Assembly: GCA_026388315.1 (NCBI GenBank)
Contig: JAPLKA010000035.1
Coordinates: 1 to 36,097 of the forward strand
Length of the DNA: 36,097 nt
Reading direction: 5' to 3'
DNA from: Pseudomonadota bacterium
Lineage (GTDB): Bacteria > Desulfobacterota > Syntrophorhabdia > Syntrophorhabdales > Syntrophorhabdaceae
Shown: positions 1 to 9,916 of the stretch, piece by piece
Numbering within the stretch: the first letter of the stretch is position 1
Layout of the letters: each line of letters starts with the position of its first letter
Position numbers and translations under genes: made by a program
Notes under the pieces: generated by a model
What the model saw: only the letters and a program-made list of their open reading frames with translations
Told to the model about the DNA's origin: nothing
Databases searched by the model: none

Positions 1-717
1 GGCATAGCTTCCAAGGTTTGAATTGGAGCTTGTGCCTGCATATTTCTCTTTCTTACCGCCACTACGGGCTGCATATTCCCATTCTGCCTCTGTGGGAAGA
101 CGATAGGATTTGCCAGTTCTGCTGTTGAGCTTTTGAATGAAGTTATGGACATCATTCCAGGAAACAGTCTCTACGGGGCATGTATCGCCGCAGGATGAAA
201 AACGTGAAGGGTTATTCCCCATGATGGCCTTCCACTGTCCCTGGCTCACCTCATATTTGCTTATGGAGAAATCAGAGACGCAGACATTGTGGACGGGCTT
301 TTCATTGGTGCTGCCGGAGGTATCCCCCATGTCGAAACAGCCGCCTTTGACGAAGACAAATTCCATACCGGTTACGGGGTCAGTAAATACCTTGGCTTTG
401 CCGCCAGCCAAAAGCTCCCAGTCAAGATTACCCTGTATACCCCTTGGGAAGTCCTGCAACACGTTCCAGTATATCTTCTTGCCCTTGCCGGGTTTGGTTT
501 TCGGGAAGTCCCCTTCAAAGTGAAGGTCTTTGTTATCGAGTGTTTTGCCGTCAATAGTACTGGTGAGCGTCAAGTCTTCTTCCTCCTGTGTATCGGAGAC
601 GACCTCAAACTCCCACACAGCCCTGTTACCTTCCTGCCTGGCGACAGCGTTCTCTACACTTGCGGCAAAGGAGGATGAAAAGAAGGTTAATAAAATTGTC
701 AGCACAGAGATGAACAT
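1..717 (-). CDS. Exported SUMF1/formylglycine-generating-enzyme-family protein, partial (3' end beyond window)
   Basis: The gene reads leftward and runs off the window. The visible 239 residues start with a signal peptide (hydrophobic MFISVLTILLTFFSSSFA). Next comes a beta-rich domain of about 110 residues containing GKGKKIYWNVLQDFP, as seen in front of many SUMF1 domains. The SUMF1 (FGE-sulfatase) domain then begins with GMEFVFVKGGCFDMGD and continues through EVSQGQWKAIMGNNPSRF, PVETVSWNDV and RLPTEAEWEYAARSGG, all hallmarks of the family. The catalytic cysteines of true formylglycine-generating enzymes lie near the C-terminus and are not visible, so enzyme activity cannot be judged; many bacterial members are only structural or binding proteins. 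The ATG at 717 was chosen because it starts the signal peptide, but no clear ribosome site is seen; a TTG at 735 is possible. It lies 40 bp after the DUF4384 gene on the same strand, probably in one operon. Confidence 0.85.
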   Translation of the reverse strand, partial: MFISVLTILLTFFSSSFAASVENAVARQEGNRAVWEFEVVSDTQEEEDLTLTSTIDGKTLDNKDLHFEGDFPKTKPGKGKKIYWNVLQDFPRGIQGNLDWELLAGGKAKVFTDPVTGMEFVFVKGGCFDMGDTSGSTNEKPVHNVCVSDFSISKYEVSQGQWKAIMGNNPSRFSSCGDTCPVETVSWNDVHNFIQKLNSRTGKSYRLPTEAEWEYAARSGGKKEKYAGTSSNSNLGSYA

Positions 718-757
718 ACGCGAATAACATGACAATTTGTTGCTGTTCTGAAAGCCC

Positions 758-1591
758 CTATCTGGCATCAATAACCTCATATGCAATGATGGTATCTTCG
801 CAATAATCCGCGATTTCTGAGTATCGTTTAAAGAATGCGGTGAAGTCTACCGGCTTCAGAGCGGTGAATATACTGGCGAATGCGCGGTTATGTGCAGGGT
901 CCATGGCAACGATAAAGAATGCCTCGGTGTCCCGTGAATGATTCGGGAGTGTGTGCATAATGAGTTCTGTCCGGGAATTTATATCTGGATAGATAAATTT
1001 TCTGCCTGCATTTAAAGCGTTTTCCTTGTCGTGGTCGTTGGGGTAAAACATAACCACTTTATCATCAGCGGTAATATTGAAGATTGCGATAAGCGCTGCT
1101 CGTGCTGTATTTACCTCAATAAATGCCTTTTCACCGTTTTTGTAGATGGAACTGTTTGCTTTAGCATTAAGACCGATTGGTTTTATTTTCAATTCGGGTG
1201 TTGACACATCAGCTGCAATCTTAACCCTGTATTCCGGTATCGGCGGGGTTGACGGGTCTTTCTGATACTGGGTAAGCGGCAGCCATTCCGCCTTTTCTTT
1301 TACAATGAATCCCTTTGCGTATGTCTTAATGAATTCAGCGGTGAGGGCCATATTGGTGACGAGGGTACTGGAAGTAACACTCACGCCTGCCGCCTGCTCA
1401 ATCGCTGATGATCGCGCCCGCTGGAGCGCAATCAACTGGCACTGCTCAGCGCTCATGCCTACGATGGCACAGGAACCTTCTGCCGCTATACTTTTGACAA
1501 GCCTTTCAGCATGGGCCATGCTCAGGCATATAAAGAAAAATAGACAATGTGAAACAGATAATAATATCAATAACCTTCGTGTATTGAGCAT
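758..1591 (-). CDS. Exported DUF4384 domain protein
   Basis: This 277-aa protein has an N-terminal signal peptide (hydrophobic LLILLSVSHCLFFFICLSMAHA). Residues about 30-130 resemble the LPP20/FlgT-like N-terminal domain, with the pattern GMSAEQCQLIALQRARSSAIEQAAG. The C-terminal half (about 140-240) matches DUF4384: AALIAIFNITADDKVVMFYPN followed by GRKFIYPD. DUF4384 proteins are periplasmic or surface proteins of unknown function, often found with SUMF1-domain or caspase-like partners, and the next gene here is SUMF1-type. A ribosome site AGGGGGAT sits 5 bases before the ATG. The two genes probably form an operon for an exported assembly; the biochemical role is unknown. Confidence 0.8.
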   Translation of the reverse strand: MLNTRRLLILLSVSHCLFFFICLSMAHAERLVKSIAAEGSCAIVGMSAEQCQLIALQRARSSAIEQAAGVSVTSSTLVTNMALTAEFIKTYAKGFIVKEKAEWLPLTQYQKDPSTPPIPEYRVKIAADVSTPELKIKPIGLNAKANSSIYKNGEKAFIEVNTARAALIAIFNITADDKVVMFYPNDHDKENALNAGRKFIYPDINSRTELIMHTLPNHSRDTEAFFIVAMDPAHNRAFASIFTALKPVDFTAFFKRYSEIADYCEDTIIAYEVIDAR

Positions 1592-1669
1592 TCAATCCCC
1601 CTATTTTACCCATTTTATAGAACAATTATCGTCATATTAATATGACCAGTCAAGTTTTAAATTTTGCAC

Positions 1670-1832
1670 GCCTAACCCTTCAAAAGATGAGATTCCCGTC
1701 GTCAGTATTGACTTTCCAGAGATTGCAGCAATTGCTCTAATTGCTTATAAAGGGGTTGGCCCGACCCCAATAGAATCGGATGGATTTCCAATTACCACCT
1801 TACTGCCCGCCCGCTGCATTTTTTTGTTCGGT
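1670..1832 (-). other. attC-like element with long spacer (weak), 3' of the cassette gene
   Basis: Read on the minus strand, the element starts with a left box ACCGAAC (1832-1826) followed by ATGCAGCGG. This is the same left half as the better site at 2847-2909 (CACCTAAC, six bases, ATGCAGCGG). A right box GTTAGGC (1676-1670) that fits the integron core consensus GTTRRRY closes it. The 163-bp span is longer than usual and the arms pair poorly, so it may be a rearranged or degenerate attC. No other gene is visible between 1592 and 1882. Confidence 0.35.
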
Positions 1833-1882
1833 GTTCTGATGATTGTCTACTCAGCGACCACATTTTGTCCCAACCAATGCGA

Positions 1883-2815
1883 TTACTTTTTGGCAAGCCA
1901 AGGCAGTTTCGCCACTTGGTAGTCAGCGAACTCGCTTACGAATCTCTCCGCCCAAAGGGCCGCCTGCTCAACAGCATGCCCAAGCTCACTGTCCAGATAG
2001 GTCAATTTATGCCAGTGTTTATGCTTTGCATAGGCGTCCTCGAACATCCAAGTGGCACCTTCCCCTTCTTCCTGTAGAACCACCGTCACGCACTCTGCCG
2101 CCTTTGTCACATGAGGAATTTCATAGAGGTGTCCAGATGCCTCGGTATTCTCGATCAATACAAACTTAGAGGAAAGGGCATACCGCATTACCTTCTGGAT
2201 GATACTCTCACCTGTTTTATCTGGTTGCTCTTTGATGATGTACGTATAGTAACCGAGTTCCTGTAGCTTGGATTCAATCCTCTTCAGTCGAGCCAGCGCA
2301 GGTCCAGCGTCCTTCCCAAGGACTAGAACCGAATCCGAGTTCTCCAAGATAGAATCCGCACGGTGCCACACCAAATCGAAGGCTGACTTGACCGACTCCA
2401 CGACTGACTTGGGCTGAGTGCTCCGTGGGAGCCTAATTTGCCACCGTACGAAGATGTGAACGTCTTCGTCATCCCTTATTGGATTCACGAAAGGATGACC
2501 CTCGTTGGCAAGGCGACGGACAGCGCGCTCCATGGCCTCAGCGAAAGCATAAGCTGAAAACTTATGCTCCCAATATTTGGTGTAAAGATGCTCTTGAATC
2601 TCGCAGACAAGGAATTCACCTTCTCGTGACACAGTTGTCTCCGGAAAGTAGTCGTCCAGCACCCATATATGGATATCTTCGGGCATGGCCTCTAAGTTCA
2701 GTCGCTCTAACTCCTTAACGCCGATAGTATCGTCATTTTCCCCACGGAATTTCTCCCACTCGTCTGCCGCTTCTGCAGCCTCGTGCCTGAATTCCTCGTG
2801 CTCGTCAGAATTCAC
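1883..2815 (-). CDS. Two-domain protein of unknown function in an integron-like cassette
   Basis: I do not recognise this 310-aa acidic protein. Residues about 1-150 form an alpha/beta region containing IHIWVLDDYFPET and HIFVRWQIRLPRS. Residues about 160-290 look like a separate Rossmann/TIR-like nucleotide-binding fold: SVLVLGKD then KLQELGYYTYIIKEQPD, KFVLIENTEASGHLYEIPH and CVTVVLQEEGEGATWMFED, a repeating strand-helix pattern with a conserved-looking SGHLYE segment. The TIR-like idea is inference from pattern only. No signal peptide or membrane segment is seen, so it is probably cytoplasmic. It lies between two attC-like sites and starts about 35 bp after the presumed recombination point, as cassette genes usually do. 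No strong ribosome site is visible before the ATG. Confidence 0.75.
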   Translation of the reverse strand: MNSDEHEEFRHEAAEAADEWEKFRGENDDTIGVKELERLNLEAMPEDIHIWVLDDYFPETTVSREGEFLVCEIQEHLYTKYWEHKFSAYAFAEAMERAVRRLANEGHPFVNPIRDDEDVHIFVRWQIRLPRSTQPKSVVESVKSAFDLVWHRADSILENSDSVLVLGKDAGPALARLKRIESKLQELGYYTYIIKEQPDKTGESIIQKVMRYALSSKFVLIENTEASGHLYEIPHVTKAAECVTVVLQEEGEGATWMFEDAYAKHKHWHKLTYLDSELGHAVEQAALWAERFVSEFADYQVAKLPWLAKK

Positions 2816-2846
2816 TTCTGCCCCCTTTGAGACTATGGTCTCTGCT

Positions 2847-2909
2847 ACCGAACGTGGGCATCAGCGGAAACCCGTAGTTTAGGCAATCCGCTGCATGCCA
2901 TGGTTAGGT
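2847..2909 (-). other. attC-like integron recombination site
   Basis: On the minus strand the site begins with ACCTAAC, which fits RYYYAAC exactly, and ends with GTTCGGT, which fits GTTRRRY with one mismatch. Between them the arms CATGGCATGCAGCGGA and TCCGCTGATGCCCAC pair almost completely, leaving one extra G in the left arm, the kind of unpaired base that sets attC orientation. The total of 63 bp is typical for attC. It lies just 3' of the DUF6953 gene and 5' of the 310-aa gene, both on the minus strand, which is the expected cassette order. No integron integrase gene is present in the window. Confidence 0.6.
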
Positions 2910-3015: not shown

Positions 3016-3288
3016 TCAGTAATCCTGTCTCCTTCCCGGCTCATCCGTTTCCTCTCTGAAGCGCCAATACCGCTCACCGTTAATCCAGACGACAATGTCT
3101 TCGGAAATATTTTTGAATTCAGAGAGAACCTCCCCTGATATCGCCAAATTCCCGCGGTCATTCTCATAGACAAAGGACCCACCAAACTTCTCCTGGATTT
3201 CCCAGACCGCGGTTTCTTGATAGAGAATCTGCTCCAGGTTAAGTTCACCAAGCATCCATTTAGCCACCTCTAATGCTGTTGCCTTCAT
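3016..3288 (-). CDS. DUF6953 family protein
   Basis: This 90-aa protein matches my memory of DUF6953: TALEVAKWMLGELN at the start, then ETAVWEIQEKFGGSFVYEN, GNLAISGEVLSEFK and IVVWINGERYWRFRE, ending in a charged PGRRQ tail. The function is unknown; the size and fold pattern suggest a small cytoplasmic protein. Its ATG overlaps the stop of the upstream 45-aa gene as ATGA, so translation is probably coupled. The attC-like site at 2847-2909 follows about 100 bp downstream, so these two small genes could be one integron cassette. Confidence 0.75.
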   Translation of the reverse strand: MKATALEVAKWMLGELNLEQILYQETAVWEIQEKFGGSFVYENDRGNLAISGEVLSEFKNISEDIVVWINGERYWRFREETDEPGRRQDY

Positions 3289-3635: not shown

Positions 3636-5097
3636 ATGCCCAAAATAGCCCGTTTCATCATCTGGATATGCTCTAAATTCACCAAGAGTGAAATAGAACA
3701 AATTGTTTCCGGCCTTGCGGATAGCGGATATTCTCCAGAACCGCAATCCGGAAGTGAAACCAAAAGACGACTTCCAAGAGAAGTACCCCAATTACAGAAA
3801 CTTTGCTGTTCCGCCCCTGCCGCCCCTGACGGAGCCTCCACAGAAGGCTCAACCTCTTCAAAAGAACTACAAGAAACTCCTTGCAGAATATGAGCAGGTC
3901 CACAGCAAACCTCTTGTTCCCGTACGATATCGGGCCGGCTCTGTTCGTGTGCCTGACCTCGTGGTATGCCCCTGCTGTAATGCTCCCCATCAGTACATTT
4001 ACTACAACGACGGGAAGAAAAGGACCCAGCTTCTCTGCAAGGTCTGCGGGCAGCTCTTTCAGGCAGACAGGCGGTTCCAAAGAAAGACAAAATATTACTG
4101 TCCCTACTGTCACCATGCACTGTTTACGTGGAAGGAAAGGAAAGAGGTCGCCATCTACAAATGCCGCAATAATAATTGTGAGTACCGGATGCGGAAGATG
4201 AACAAACTCAACGAGCGGGAAAAGGAATTGGTAAAAATACGGAGTTCACAGTTCAAGCTTGCCTATCAGTACCGGGAGTATCATTTTGCACTTTACGATC
4301 TTACCCATTCTACGCCGGAGGATCAGTCCCTCAATCTCACAAGAACCCACAACGGCCCTAACATCCTTGGCCTTATCCTCGCCTTCTACGTCTCCTTTGC
4401 GCTTTCTGCCAGGAAGACCGCCCTTGTCTTGCGATCGGTATTTGGCATCTCCATTTCCCACCAGACAGTCCTGAACTATGCTGCTGCAGCTGCCTTCTAC
4501 TGTCATAGGTTCAACTTGAAGCATAAAGGGTCCATCGATCTTATAAGCGCAGGCGATGAGGCCTATATAAAGATTATGGGTAAACATCGCTATGTCTTCT
4601 TTTTCATCTCATCGGAGAATCTGAAGATCACCGCATACCATGTAGCCGACAGTAGGGAACCGCTTCCTGCGATCATCGCTATGAACGAGGCGATCCGCAC
4701 GGCAGAGCCGGGACAGACAATAATTCTTGTCACCGATGGCAACCCGTCATATCCTGCGGGGATACACTACCTGAACGAACAGAGAGGAAAAGATGCGTCG
4801 CTTACTCACAAGAAGGTGATAGGACTCCAGAACTTAGACAGCGAGTCGGAAGCCTACCGGGTTTTCAAGCAGCTTATTGAAAGACTGAACAGGACCTTTA
4901 AACATCATGTAAGGCCCTCGCACGGGTTTAACAGCCTCAATGGTGCGATATCACTCGTCACGCTATTTGTCACCCATTACAACTTCTTGAGGCCTCACAT
5001 GTCTTTGAATTGGAAAACACCCATTCACATGCCGGAACTGGAAGGGGTCAACACCATCCAGGGCAGGTGGCAGAAAATACTTTCCCTTGCTGCCTGA
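3636..5097 (+). pseudogene. IS6/IS240-like DDE transposase, frameshifted near the N-terminus
   Basis: The natural start is ATG 3636 (MPKIARFIIWICSKFTKSEI), with a ribosome site AAAGGAG upstream. After SGLAD the frame breaks because GCGGATA is duplicated (3717-3723 and 3724-3730); removing one copy joins SGLAD directly to ILQNRNPEV and gives a protein of about 484 residues. After the break the frame is open to 5097. A 464-aa product could start at a TTG (3703), losing about 25 residues. It has two zinc-ribbon-like Cys pairs groups (CPCC with CKVC, and CPYC with the CRNNNC segment). The DDE core is visible: GDEAYIKI, LVTDGNPSY and ERLNRTFKHHVRP. The catalytic domain is intact, so the shortened protein may still work or be supplied in trans. 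A programmed shift is less likely than a simple 7-bp duplication. Confidence 0.8.
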
Positions 5098-5374
5098 AGG
5101 GTAACTTCTCTTCGATTGTCAAAGAACAATAAAAAAACCTGCCGTTTCTCTATCTCGTTGCGGACATAAAACTCAGTTTATGTGCATGTTTGGCACATCG
5201 CATTGCGTCCGACTTCTTATGAATTCCTCTAAACATACTTGATGTTCCTGTTTTCATATCTCACATACTTCTTTTCATGAAACTTTTGACAATATCTTTA
5301 AATGGTGTTTGTAAGAATGTTTGAAATTGCGTTTTTTTCGGATAAACCTACTGAAGATTTTGCTTATGTATTAC
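5098..5374. other. Intergenic stretch with stacked hairpins after the transposase
   Basis: No gene is seen. ACATAAA (5164-5170) pairs with TTTATGT (5177-5183), directly followed by TGTGC (5181-5185) with GCACA (5193-5197), and flanked by CGGAC and GTCCG. This could be the right end of the insertion sequence or a two-hairpin terminator. A TTGACA at about 5286 is promoter-like, but no gene on the plus strand follows it. Confidence 0.35.
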
Positions 5375-5925
5375 TTATTTGCAAATTTGTTCAATTATTT
5401 TTGCACTTTTTCTCCACTCCCAGGGAGGGGTCGGGTTTGATTGCTTCCAAAGTCCTTTTCGTTCCTTTCGCGCCCGTTGCTCAGCGTTGTAGAACTCCGA
5501 GACATAAGGTTTGTCGACGTATTGCATATACGCCCAGGCATATCCCGATTCAACCATTTCAAGGTTGATATTGCGTCCGTCGAGAAAAACATAGCCGACA
5601 ACCCTGCCGAGACGGTCTCTTGTAAAACCAGGGATGCGAGCTTATCTTCCGCTTCCGGTCCGTATTCCTGGTTTTTTTCCGGTGAGTCTATGCCTCTCAT
5701 GCGGACCGGGACGAAACCGGTCTTACGATACTTTGAATCGAGAGGATATCGGTTTCGGTCATCGGGGACAACATGAATGGTGTCGCCATCTGTGATTCTT
5801 ATTACCTTTCCCGTAAAATCTGACGGATTAGCAGCATATACCGCCAAAGGGTATATGAAAACTACAAGGATGGCTGTTATGAAACCCCTCTGGAATATTT
5901 CTGAAACATTTTTTTGTTTACTCAT
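5375..5925 (-). pseudogene. Thermonuclease (SNase-like) gene, broken by internal deletion and frameshift
   Basis: The start ATG at 5925 (MSKQKNVSEIFQ) has a ribosome site GGGAGG seven bases upstream. A membrane/signal segment (FITAILVVFIYPLAVYAA) precedes the nuclease fold: GKVIRITDGDTIHVV, then VRMRGIDSPEKNQEYGPEAEDKLASLV, which carries the Arg and Glu active-site region of staphylococcal-type nucleases. Near 5618-5640 the frame changes, and the other frame continues TRDRLGRVVGYVFLDGRNINLEMVESG to the TAA at 5375. The usual strand of about 8-10 residues (typically GKTVKVEVV) between the two parts is missing, so this is a small deletion that is not a multiple of three. The family secretes or anchors a Ca-dependent nuclease; this copy is probably inactive. 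Confidence 0.8.
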
Positions 5926-6044
5926 GAGCCAACCTCCCTCTGTATGTTTCAATCATTTGAATTTGTATTACTTCTCGATGTTCAAGGAAGTAATACATTT
6001 CATAAGATGAAAATTTGTTTTCACATAAAAAAAAGGAGGAAATT

Positions 6045-6431
6045 ATGCTCAAATGGTATTACGAAGTCCTGAAAAATTATACGGGTTTTAGCGGAAGAGC
6101 AAGTCGGAAAGAGTTTTGGTATTTCACCTTGTTCAACGCCATCATCACCATTGTACTTGGCGTCTTAGACCTTGTAACAGGCAGTTACCTGACCGAATCC
6201 GGTATCTGGTTTTTGAGTGGCGGTTATGCCCTGGCCTTATTAATGCCAAGCATAGCCGTATCGATCCGGAGACTTCATGACACTGACCGCAGCGGATGGT
6301 GGGTGCTTTTTTCTCTGGTTCCCCTCATTGGTATTATTGTGTTTTATGTCTTCATGGCGCAAGACAGCGAACCCGGCGAAAATCAATATGGACCGAACCC
6401 AAAGAAAGTCGGCTTGCCCCCTGACAAGTGA
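6045..6431 (+). CDS. DUF805 family membrane protein
   Basis: The start ATG at 6045 (MLKWYYEVLKNYTGFSGRAS) follows a strong AAAGGAGG ribosome site. The 128-aa protein shows the DUF805 signature: FSGRASRKEFWYFTLFN, three or four membrane segments (about 27-50, 57-78, 90-112), IAVSIRRLHDTDRSGWWVL and a C-terminal GENQYGPNP. DUF805 proteins are small inner-membrane proteins without a settled function, common on mobile and phage-like DNA. It lies about 120 bp before the topoisomerase gene on the same strand. Confidence 0.85.
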   Translation: MLKWYYEVLKNYTGFSGRASRKEFWYFTLFNAIITIVLGVLDLVTGSYLTESGIWFLSGGYALALLMPSIAVSIRRLHDTDRSGWWVLFSLVPLIGIIVFYVFMAQDSEPGENQYGPNPKKVGLPPDK

Positions 6432-6548
6432 ACTTCCGTTATCACAACTGCCGTCATTTTACTATGGCCAAACAACAATTATTGATTCCACATCATTCAA
6501 CGCTGATTATATGCTTGATAAACTTCATTAAAAGAAGGAAAGTAAAGT

Positions 6549-8798
6549 ATGGCAAAAAGAATACTCGTTATTGCGGAAAAGCCCTCTGCGGCAAGGGATA
6601 TCGCAAATGGCCTCGCAGACAATTTCAAAAAGAAAGAGGGGTATCTGGAAGGGTCCAGATATATTGTTGCGTGGGCGAGAGGACATCTTGTTACTCCCAA
6701 AAACCCCGATGCTTACGGAGTCCAGTGGAAGAAATGGGATCTCGATACGCTTCCGATAATCCCGGAGAAATTTCAGTATGAAGTAATAAGAGCAACCACA
6801 GGTTTATTTAAAGTTCTCAAAAAGCTTATCAACGATCCCGATGTGGAAAGCATAGTAAACTGTGGTGATAGCGGAAGAGAGGGCGAGCTAATCCAACGCC
6901 TTATTTATATCATGGCAGGTAATAAAAAACCCGTTAAGAGGATGTGGACATCCGAGGCGTTAACGCCTGATGCAGTAAAGCGTGCTTTTGCCAACCTGAA
7001 AGATGCCGGGGAATATGACCGCCTGTTTAACAGCGCTATCGCAAGGCAGCATGCAGACTGGCTTGTTGGAATGACAAACACCCGGGCATTTTCCGTAAAG
7101 TACGGCGGGTTCAAAAATGTGTATTCTATCGGAAGGGTTCAGACAGCGACCCTTCGAATCATAGTTGACAGGGAAAAAGAAATACTGAATTTTAAGCCTG
7201 AAAACTACTGGCTCGTAAGGGCTAAGTTTAAACACAAAAGCGGTCAGTATGAGGGCCTTTGGTTTAATGCAAAAAATCATCCGGAAGAAAAAGAGGTTTC
7301 GCCCCGGCCCCCCGCAAAAGATAGTCCCGAGGATAAGATATCATCCAGGGTTTCGACAGAGAAGCTTGCAAAAGAGATCATTGATCGCGTTAATGGCAAA
7401 AAAGGGGTTGTGCAGTCTATTACCAAAAAATCAAAAGAAGACCCTGCGCCATTGTTGTTTTCCCTGTCTGTTCTTCAGCAGGAGGCGAATAAGCATTTTG
7501 GTTTCTTTGCAGAAAAAACCCTCAGCGTGGCCCAGTCACTCTATGAGAAAAAGGTTATCACCTATCCGAGAACCAGCAGCCAGCACCTCGGTGAAGAATT
7601 TGACAAAGATGCAAGCAAGATACTGGACAAGCTTTCTTCATCCGGACAGATAAATTTCGACATCAGAAAATGTACAGTTAACAAGAAAAACAAGAAGGTA
7701 TTTGATTCATCGAAACTCGCTGATCACCATGCATTAATTCCTACGGGGCTTACTGCCGGTTTATCGCCTGATGAGCAGAAACTTTACAACCTTATTTGTA
7801 CAAGGTTCATCGCTGCTTTTTATCCTACATTCAAATATACCACCACAACCGTTGTTACCCTTGTCGGAGCCGATACCTTTGAATCGAAAGGCAAGATAGT
7901 TCTTGACCCGGGCTGGAAAGCGGTATACGGATCCAAAGATCAGGACAAGATTATCCCGGATTTACTTAACAACGACCCTGTTGCCACAATAGGCGCGCAT
8001 ACCGAAGCAAAACAGACTACTCCCCCTGCACGGTACAACGATGGCACCTTAATCAATGCCATGACAAATGCCCAGAGGTTTATAACCGATGCAGCACTCA
8101 AAAAAATACTGAAGGAAACTGCGGGGCTCGGCACAGAAGCTACCAGATCAAATATTATCGACACAATAATCCATCGCTTTTATGTAAAACGTGAAGGCAA
8201 GCAGTTTGTTCCTACTGATAAAGGAATATTCCTTATTGATACACTTCTCGATGACCCCATTGCAAATATCGGCAATACGGCACTCTGGGAACAGACACTT
8301 GATGACATCGCCGCAGGAAAAGTGGCATCATCCAATGAGTTTATGGAAAGCATAAAAAAATACATTACGGGATTTGTTAAAAAGATCAGAGGTGCCAGCG
8401 CCGGTACTCCTGCTAAATCACAAAACAATAACTATTCAACAGATGCTTCTCCTGTTGGAAACGGAAACGCCCCGACAGGGCAGGATAGCATTGGTTCCTG
8501 TCCCGAATGTGGTAAAGATATTATTGAAACCGCAAAAGGATATTCCTGTTCGGGATACTCCAATGGCTGTAAATTTGTAATATGGAAAGATTCCCTTAAG
8601 AGACTCGGCGGGAGAGAGGTTACCGCATCCCAGGCAAGAAAACTTCTCAACAATGAGACTATAAAATTATCCGGACTCACTTCTAAAGCTGGTAAAAAAT
8701 ACGATGCTGGCGGCAAACTTAACAAACACATACAGTATGGATGGCAGATAGGCATTATCTTCGACAACAATGGCTATTCCAACAACAGCAGTTCTTAA
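6549..8798 (+). CDS. topB: DNA topoisomerase III (type IA), element-type
   Basis: The enzyme cuts and passes single DNA strands through a 5'-phosphotyrosine link, and decatenates DNA. The 749-aa protein starts with the TOPRIM domain (ILVIAEKPSAARDIA with the catalytic Glu; NCGDSGREGELIQ near 100-112). The motif reads DSGREGE rather than the DxDREG of E. coli TopB; a Gly here is common in element-borne TopB proteins. The active-site Tyr lies in VITYPRTSSQHL (about residue 339). GLGTEATRSNIIDTI is also typical. The C-terminus has one zinc ribbon (CPECGKD then CSGYSNGC) and a tail ending in an HIQYGW segment. The ribosome site AAGGA lies upstream. Such topB genes are common in integrative/conjugative elements, and the coupling ATPase at 10308-11759 fits that setting. 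Confidence 0.95.
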   Translation: MAKRILVIAEKPSAARDIANGLADNFKKKEGYLEGSRYIVAWARGHLVTPKNPDAYGVQWKKWDLDTLPIIPEKFQYEVIRATTGLFKVLKKLINDPDVESIVNCGDSGREGELIQRLIYIMAGNKKPVKRMWTSEALTPDAVKRAFANLKDAGEYDRLFNSAIARQHADWLVGMTNTRAFSVKYGGFKNVYSIGRVQTATLRIIVDREKEILNFKPENYWLVRAKFKHKSGQYEGLWFNAKNHPEEKEVSPRPPAKDSPEDKISSRVSTEKLAKEIIDRVNGKKGVVQSITKKSKEDPAPLLFSLSVLQQEANKHFGFFAEKTLSVAQSLYEKKVITYPRTSSQHLGEEFDKDASKILDKLSSSGQINFDIRKCTVNKKNKKVFDSSKLADHHALIPTGLTAGLSPDEQKLYNLICTRFIAAFYPTFKYTTTTVVTLVGADTFESKGKIVLDPGWKAVYGSKDQDKIIPDLLNNDPVATIGAHTEAKQTTPPARYNDGTLINAMTNAQRFITDAALKKILKETAGLGTEATRSNIIDTIIHRFYVKREGKQFVPTDKGIFLIDTLLDDPIANIGNTALWEQTLDDIAAGKVASSNEFMESIKKYITGFVKKIRGASAGTPAKSQNNNYSTDASPVGNGNAPTGQDSIGSCPECGKDIIETAKGYSCSGYSNGCKFVIWKDSLKRLGGREVTASQARKLLNNETIKLSGLTSKAGKKYDAGGKLNKHIQYGWQIGIIFDNNGYSNNSSS

Positions 8799-8811
8799 AA
8801 AGGTGGCAGCA

Positions 8812-9015
8812 ATGGCAAAAGAAAAAAAAGTGAGAAGACCAGTACTCAACGAAGTTCCCTTAAGTTCCACCATGAAACCTATGACTGTGAATATCACGAT
8901 GAGCCCCGGGCAATGGGATGGATTTCTCAAAGCAGCTTATGACAGCGGAGATAATTTAATTGAAGTGGAAAACGAGTTTCCGGTCAGAGCATACCGGAAA
9001 CTCCCTGACGCATAA
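8812..9015 (+). CDS. Small protein of unknown function (67 aa)
   Basis: The start ATG at 8812 (MAKEKKVRRPVLNEVPLSS) has an AAGGTGG ribosome site; an ATG at 8770 in the same frame would overlap the end of topB. The product is small and soluble, with a basic N-terminus and MSPGQWDGFLKAAYDSGDNLIEVE in the middle. I do not recognise the family. Its place between topB and the regulator, with 13 bp and 3 bp gaps, says it belongs to the same operon and mobile element. Confidence 0.7.
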   Translation: MAKEKKVRRPVLNEVPLSSTMKPMTVNITMSPGQWDGFLKAAYDSGDNLIEVENEFPVRAYRKLPDA

Positions 9016-9018
9016 TAT

Positions 9019-9786
9019 ATGGAACATCATCGTTTGTTGAGATTTGCAAGGGAGATGCAAGGAAAAAAACAAAGAGCAGTTGCGCAGGCAGCTTGTATTA
9101 CACAGCAATCTGTCAACGCCTATGAGCATGGATACGCTTCTCTTTCCGTGGATACCCTGAAGAAGATTGCAGTAACAATTGGCTTGAATCCAGAGTATCT
9201 TTCTGATCCAACCGTTAACCCTTTCAAGTCGGACGAATTGATAAAAATGGAACTGCCCGAGAGGTACATAAATTCTGGGATAGATTTCGAGATTTTTTAT
9301 TTTTTAGCAACGAATAACAAAAGACTTAGAATAATATTTTTATATTCGATGTCAACGAAATCAAAACAACTGTTACGCGGCACAATATTTGGAAACCCCG
9401 TTTGGGCAATAGCCTGCCAAGACACAGATGGTAATATTTTTCTTTTTAAACGTAAAAAAAGATTAATGGGCCCTGTTTTGGGGGACCAGGAGTTACGGAT
9501 TGAGATTGTCAAATATAGAAGCGCCAATAAATTGATATTAATCGAAGACAAGGAGATTGGCGATAAGCTTCTAACAAAAATCAGTGACTGGACGATAACG
9601 AAGAGTGACCTGGAAGGTATATTTTCTGTTGATGATGATATTCTCTTGGATGAATTAGATACGTTAGTAATTAAAACAATGAGGAATAAAAGGATAGGTC
9701 ATCGCAAAATGTTAGAAATTATTGAAAATTGTGATTCCTCCATCCTCATGAAAGATTTGCCAGAAGGATCTGACCCTCAAGAATGA
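9019..9786 (+). CDS. XRE-type HTH transcriptional regulator with long C-terminal domain
   Basis: Residues about 5-60 form a Cro/CI-type helix-turn-helix: LLRFAREMQGKKQRAVAQAA, ITQQSVNAYEHGYASLSVDTLKKIA and IGLNPEYLSD. The remaining 190 residues have no family I can name; they alternate strands and helices (IFGNPVWAIACQDTDGNIFLF) and may sense a ligand or bind a partner. The gene begins 3 bp after the previous stop, so it is in the topB operon. It probably regulates the mobile element. The lack of a clear ribosome site suggests translational coupling. Confidence 0.8.
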   Translation: MEHHRLLRFAREMQGKKQRAVAQAACITQQSVNAYEHGYASLSVDTLKKIAVTIGLNPEYLSDPTVNPFKSDELIKMELPERYINSGIDFEIFYFLATNNKRLRIIFLYSMSTKSKQLLRGTIFGNPVWAIACQDTDGNIFLFKRKKRLMGPVLGDQELRIEIVKYRSANKLILIEDKEIGDKLLTKISDWTITKSDLEGIFSVDDDILLDELDTLVIKTMRNKRIGHRKMLEIIENCDSSILMKDLPEGSDPQE

Positions 9787-9916
9787 CCCTGTGCAATCAT
9801 CGGGAGTACTCCTTTACCGGGACACGGACGGGACATGTCATAAGACAGTTAACGGGAGAACTTAAAAGAGTGCGTGCGGCTATATACTGATAAGAGCGTT
9901 TTGCACCATGAGGAAA

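Follow-up and report, generated by a model that had tools for sequence, protein, structure and literature searches.

The window analysed here, the whole 36,097-nucleotide contig C35 of the 3.8-Mb genome G000, carries a decayed, integrase-less remnant of integron cassettes, CALIN-like and thus of a known kind. The integron of which this remnant is a decayed outlier has its intI on a different contig of the same genome. This reading follows from the genome as a whole, which encodes an integron integrase on contig C46 (TIGR02249, 370 bits against a cut-off of 265) and holds 48 sites matching our attC covariance model R2 at E<=0.01 on 19 contigs, the seven training sites included. intI, attI and attC stand together on C46 and not in the window, where blastn and tblastn searches for an intI or attI remnant found none and an Rfam scan returned nothing at gathering cut-offs. 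The initial annotation had proposed integron cassettes without an integrase in the window: the kind of element was right, but the second of its two sites is only a left half, the genes beyond it are chromosomal, and the genome does have an intI.

CALINs are arrays that lack an integrase; they are regarded as degraded integrons (PMC9024848), and they can be mobilised by an integrase acting in trans (PMC12444791). The window resembles a CALIN as defined by IntegronFinder 2.0 (PMC9024848) in that attC and cassette genes are found with neither integrase nor attI in cis and with an integrase elsewhere in the genome, but it holds one complete attC and one half site, below the default minimum of two attC sites. 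Single-attC cases can be true positives (PMC9024848).

Table 1. Positions of the features discussed, in the window and (with contig or locus names) elsewhere in genome G000
Feature	Position	Strand	Remarks
DUF4384 gene, ancestral chromosome	758..1591	-	orthologue at G002:C240 (87% identity), where the DNA is colinear
Native chromosomal repeat at the downstream border, holding a false R' box at 1670	1597..1774		81-82% identity to G000:C23 and, to 1735, to G002:C240
Left half of second attC, right half missing	1811..1832	-	CACCGAAC-N6-ATGCAGCGG; exact motif only here; no fold, no model match
310-aa cassette cargo gene; C-terminal domain predicted to be DNPH1/NDRT/TIR-like, no match for the N-terminal domain	1883..2815	-	attC distance, distribution, predicted fold
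Complete attC	2847..2909	-	R and L boxes, 6-nt spacers, extra base in L'', fold, independent covariance model
DUF6953 gene, 90 aa, probably carried as cargo by the cassette with the complete attC at its end	3016..3288	-	PF22266; missing from 59 relatives
IS6-like transposase gene, adjoining the upstream side of the cassettes	3703..5097	+	NF033587 E 2.3e-21, below its cut-off; rve_3 and DDE_Tnp_IS240
Platform C128	L142:4367-4859		attI and first 42 codons of intI
Platform C125	L145:1346-1780		attI and 25 codons of intI
Platform C84	L133:12146-12571		attI present, intI deleted
Platform C105	L136:1251-1505		diverged N-terminal intI start, 85 aa
Hairpin copies on C46	L037:1961-2089, 4680-4806, 7942-8068		
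Other hairpin copies	C54:68838, C84:9401, C105:35053, C125:26651, C128:20376, C128:18260/17724		

Origin of the remnant

The stretch from 1811 to about 3300 is very probably the fossil of a cassette insertion into a part of the chromosome that has neither intI nor attI. Against this stand the single complete attC of the window, the one position at which its R' box deviates from GTTRRRY, the failure to locate where the DUF6953 cassette ends upstream, the nearness of the contig start (position 1) and the many arrays of this genome that lie at contig ends, which leave the number of separate arrays uncertain. Together with the inflation of CALIN counts by draft genomes (PMC9024848), these contig-end clusters could mean that the window belongs to the C46 integron, or to the array of another platform, and looks integrase-less only because the draft assembly cut it off. 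We consider this quite unlikely: the DNA downstream of the half site is native chromosome common to the congener G002 and not further cassettes, and upstream an IS6-like gene is followed by 30 kb with neither intI nor attI. Nor does C35 look like a contaminant contig, given its colinearity with G002.

In recombination with attI, IntI acts on attC as a folded bottom strand (PMC8352920). For the fossil insertion, we suggest that one or two cassettes were placed here by the C46 integrase, acting on such a folded strand, or else by a platform that has since disappeared: a DUF6953 cassette with the complete attC at its end, and behind it a cassette with the 310-aa gene. The right half of the second cassette's attC would have been lost later. 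The route may have been a non-classical, attG-like site, or the place may be what remains of a platform that lost its attI and intI by deletion, perhaps through the adjacent IS; attG-like insertion and platform decay are indistinguishable here. Genomes can also receive cassettes at attG sites (Loot et al. 2024, as cited in PMC12444791). Compared with such insertions, the window is similar in having cassettes in ordinary chromosome, distant from attI, and differs in that the downstream attC is damaged and the insertion point of the cassettes could not be reconstructed. Because the right half of the second attC is missing, the 310-aa cassette should no longer excise by attC x attC recombination, which would leave its gene fixed in the chromosome.

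The complete attC site

The 63-bp imperfect palindrome at 2847-2909, described in the initial annotation with attC-like ends, paired arms and one extra base, was confirmed at exactly these coordinates and, judged from its sequence, is a genuine attC. On the minus strand, from 2909 to 2847, it reads ACCTAAC-CATGGC-ATGCAGCGG-loop-CCGCTGAT-GCCCAC-GTTCGGT, where ACCTAAC, ATGCAGCGG, CCGCTGAT and GTTCGGT are the R'', L'', L' and R' boxes; the bottom (recombining) strand would be the plus strand. R'' matches RYYYAAC and R' departs from GTTRRRY at one position, six of the seven R-box pairs and all eight L-box pairs form, L'' carries one extra G and both spacers are of 6 nt. DNA folding gave -16.1 kcal/mol against -10.1 for shuffles (z -2.67, 4/200).

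In a geometry scan the site scored highest in the window, at 18.9, but the best hits of 30 shuffled windows reached 15.2-18.9, so that the scan alone is marginal and was used only for finding sites. The independent evidence comes from model R2, built from the seven attC sites beside the C46 integrase with the window site left out, which scored the palindrome at 42.9 bits (E 4.7e-8 in 94 kb, 1.9e-6 genome-wide), the next-best match in the window reaching 10.8 bits. Among the eight sites, 9 of 15 pairs changed on both sides, a count not equalled in any of 500 shuffles and collapsing in slid versions, although it was helped by the sites having been found partly by pairing. That the palindrome is an unrelated structure (a terminator or REP-like element), attC-like by chance as the shuffled geometry scores would allow, is very improbable given this match to a model trained on other sites, an orientation and distance to the gene that suit a cassette, and the matching left half at the gene's other end.

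The covariance-model search that had been suggested for this DNA thus recovers the palindrome as an attC. The cassette reading was to be abandoned if no attC-model match and no similar palindromes by unrelated genes were found; it survives, as the site matches the model and many such sites lie beside unrelated genes throughout the genome.

The half site and the native downstream flank

The second site had been placed at 1670-1832, and only part of it stands. Its left half (1832-1811, CACCGAAC-AAAAAA-ATGCAGCGG) is real and repeats the left half of the complete site with identical spacing; the exact motif AAC-N6-ATGCAGCGG has two occurrences in 3.8 Mb of genome, and both fall in the window. A full attC has both R and both L boxes and can fold, and 1670-1832 offers R''-spacer-L'' only. 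Its supposed right end is chromosomal repeat DNA: window 1-1606 is 84% colinear with contig C240 of G002, the segment 1597-1735 picks up again at that position of C240, beyond a small insertion that G002 carries, and 1597-1774 recurs at another locus of its own genome (C23). Since this segment is shared with G002 and C23, the GTTAGGC at 1670-1676, a candidate R' box, is native chromosome, and the word is not conserved in the homologous copies. That 1670-1832 should be a complete long attC, with the 310-aa cassette still mobile, can hardly be maintained: GTTAGGC does fit GTTRRRY and five of seven R pairs form, but the L' partner is absent, the remainder of the site does not fold (z -0.03), no covariance-model match covers it, and its right-half stretch is the repeat just described. 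The comparisons place the junction between cassette and chromosome between about 1774 and 1811.

Within the genus, the repeat at 1597-1774 (TTGACTTTCC..GATT..GGCCCGACCCC) is interspersed; about 40 partial copies of it were listed from its own genome and G002. In G002:C240 (L131:6137-6898), a toxin-antitoxin-like pair (PIN-like and antitoxin-like by eye) is inserted at the place equivalent to window 1597-1606; this place, close to the cassette remnant, is a possible insertion hotspot.

The genes between and before the two sites had been read as cassettes. This holds for the 310-aa gene and probably for the DUF6953 gene, but the DUF4384 and FGE-sulfatase genes are ruled out by their 84% colinearity with G002 and belong to the ancestral chromosome. 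The DUF6953 gene, sought in 59 relatives and absent from them, probably represents the cassette to which the complete attC belongs. On the right-hand side an empty site was sought: window 5100-9800 has no long match in congeners, and the DUF6953 cassette could not be delimited upstream. The IS6-like element possibly caused the loss of an upstream part.

The 310-aa cargo gene

To judge from its surroundings and its distribution, the 310-aa gene is cassette cargo foreign to the phylum. It starts 36 nt past the GTT of the complete attC, and among 395 genomes of the phylum its product is found in its own genome and, as a partial match of 37%, in one other. Homologues with 56-77% identity occur in Acidobacteria, Verrucomicrobia, Omnitrophota and Stahlbacteria. 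On an Omnitrophota MAG contig (L119), the homologue lies behind a model-found site at 1029-1103 (E 5e-4), and a second attC-like site (1690-1749, geometry scan only) directly precedes the gene; no attC was found near the homologues in the other phyla. After the homologue on L119 (2661-2720) there is an apparent left half of attC only (CCTAACAATCGCATGCACACGG), as in the window, by chance or through a shared cause.

The AlphaFold model of the protein (pLDDT 81) has a predicted C-terminal domain (residues about 159-297) that resembles DNPH1, MilB and TIR domains with Z about 11-13, the best match reaching Z 13.1 over 136 aligned residues (rmsd 3.1; Foldseek E 5e-5); the search took the C-terminal domain and barely covered the N-terminal part. 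The predicted model thus shows the catalytic-domain fold of the DNPH1/NDRT/TIR-like N-glycosidases. A candidate Glu lies in SGHLYEIPHV, which we take to resemble the catalytic Glu motif of DNPH1/MilB hydrolases and TIR domains, and is conserved among homologues except for a K in L116 and the truncated L121. Alongside these similarities in fold and motif, the cargo differs from DNPH1, MilB and TIR proteins by an extra N-terminal domain, by an identity of 6-16% and by the L116 homologue with K for Glu. Searches against PADLOC, NCBIfam and PDB sequences gave no match. From the predicted C-terminal fold, a nucleotide or NAD N-glycosidase is to be expected, possibly acting as a defence effector.

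Integrase, attC sites and degraded platforms across the genome

More attention is due to the rest of the genome than to the window. The region beside the integrase, C46:1-8100, holds a cassette array that runs on the opposite strand, and orientation is uniform within the larger attC clusters of the genome. The C46 IntI (L037:8311-9759) is 482 aa long and is extended at its N terminus by about 170 aa; a related extension, of about 100 aa, precedes the usual SAM-like domain in most of the IntIs of the phylum that we examined. Across 60 genomes searched (its own included), attC hits were found in 30 and an IntI over the cut-off in 13, which indicates that integrase-less attC sites are usual in the family of this genome; G005, for example, is 99% complete and has 24 attC hits, with no IntI match at E<=1e-50.

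At least three further platforms hold attI yet have lost most of intI (Table 1), and between C46, C125 and C128 the attI-intI flanks share 86-88% identity. It is tempting, and we do so tentatively, to suppose that one intact integrase could serve several platforms in trans (C84, C125, C128 and the degraded C105), that a hairpin cassette (see below) may have spread to nine crossover points, and that the window might be a decayed outlier of this network. Integrase-less attC arrays are common and their origin is debated; in this genome an intact integron, platforms with truncated intI but retained attI, larger attC clusters, and an attC with a half site locked in native chromosome (in the window) appear side by side as stages.

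A gene-less hairpin element

A 127-nt gene-less hairpin is present in nine copies, eight full and one interrupted. Its left end always falls at G|TT (in six attC and three attI sites) and its right end at CCCCGA|TT, and on its own it is strongly structured (z -8.6). The attI of C84 is without the element and shows the crossover point with a different cassette. Since the copies are 97-100% identical whereas the platform flanks are 86-88% identical, either the element moved later than the divergence of the platforms or its copies were homogenised. Its circular form would have R''=GAGAATC and R'=GATTCTC, fully complementary, with AATC/GATT as the core in place of AAC/GTT. The attI and attC targets have little in common outside the core, which makes IntI the likeliest agent of the movement, and the element itself is likeliest to be a gene-less integron cassette.

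Cassettes without a gene have been described before, and some of them have promoter activity (PMC11014356, PMC6557892). Like these, the hairpin has no gene and sits at an attI or attC crossover; unlike them, it is 127 nt long, has nine near-identical copies, an AATC/GATT core and a perfect long stem. A limited literature search found no report of a gene-less cassette with this core. In the relatives searched, the element gave only a 27-nt, chance-level match, and none was found in viral contigs (exact 25-mer) or plasmids. With a small multi-copy gene-less element at integrase crossover points, it would become possible to test directly how much sequence variation the crossover triplet tolerates. 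The interrupted copy on C128 contains an insertion of about 480 bp (L142:1780-2261) with a 5-bp duplication (GCTTC) and TGTA/TACA ends, which resembles a small transposon.
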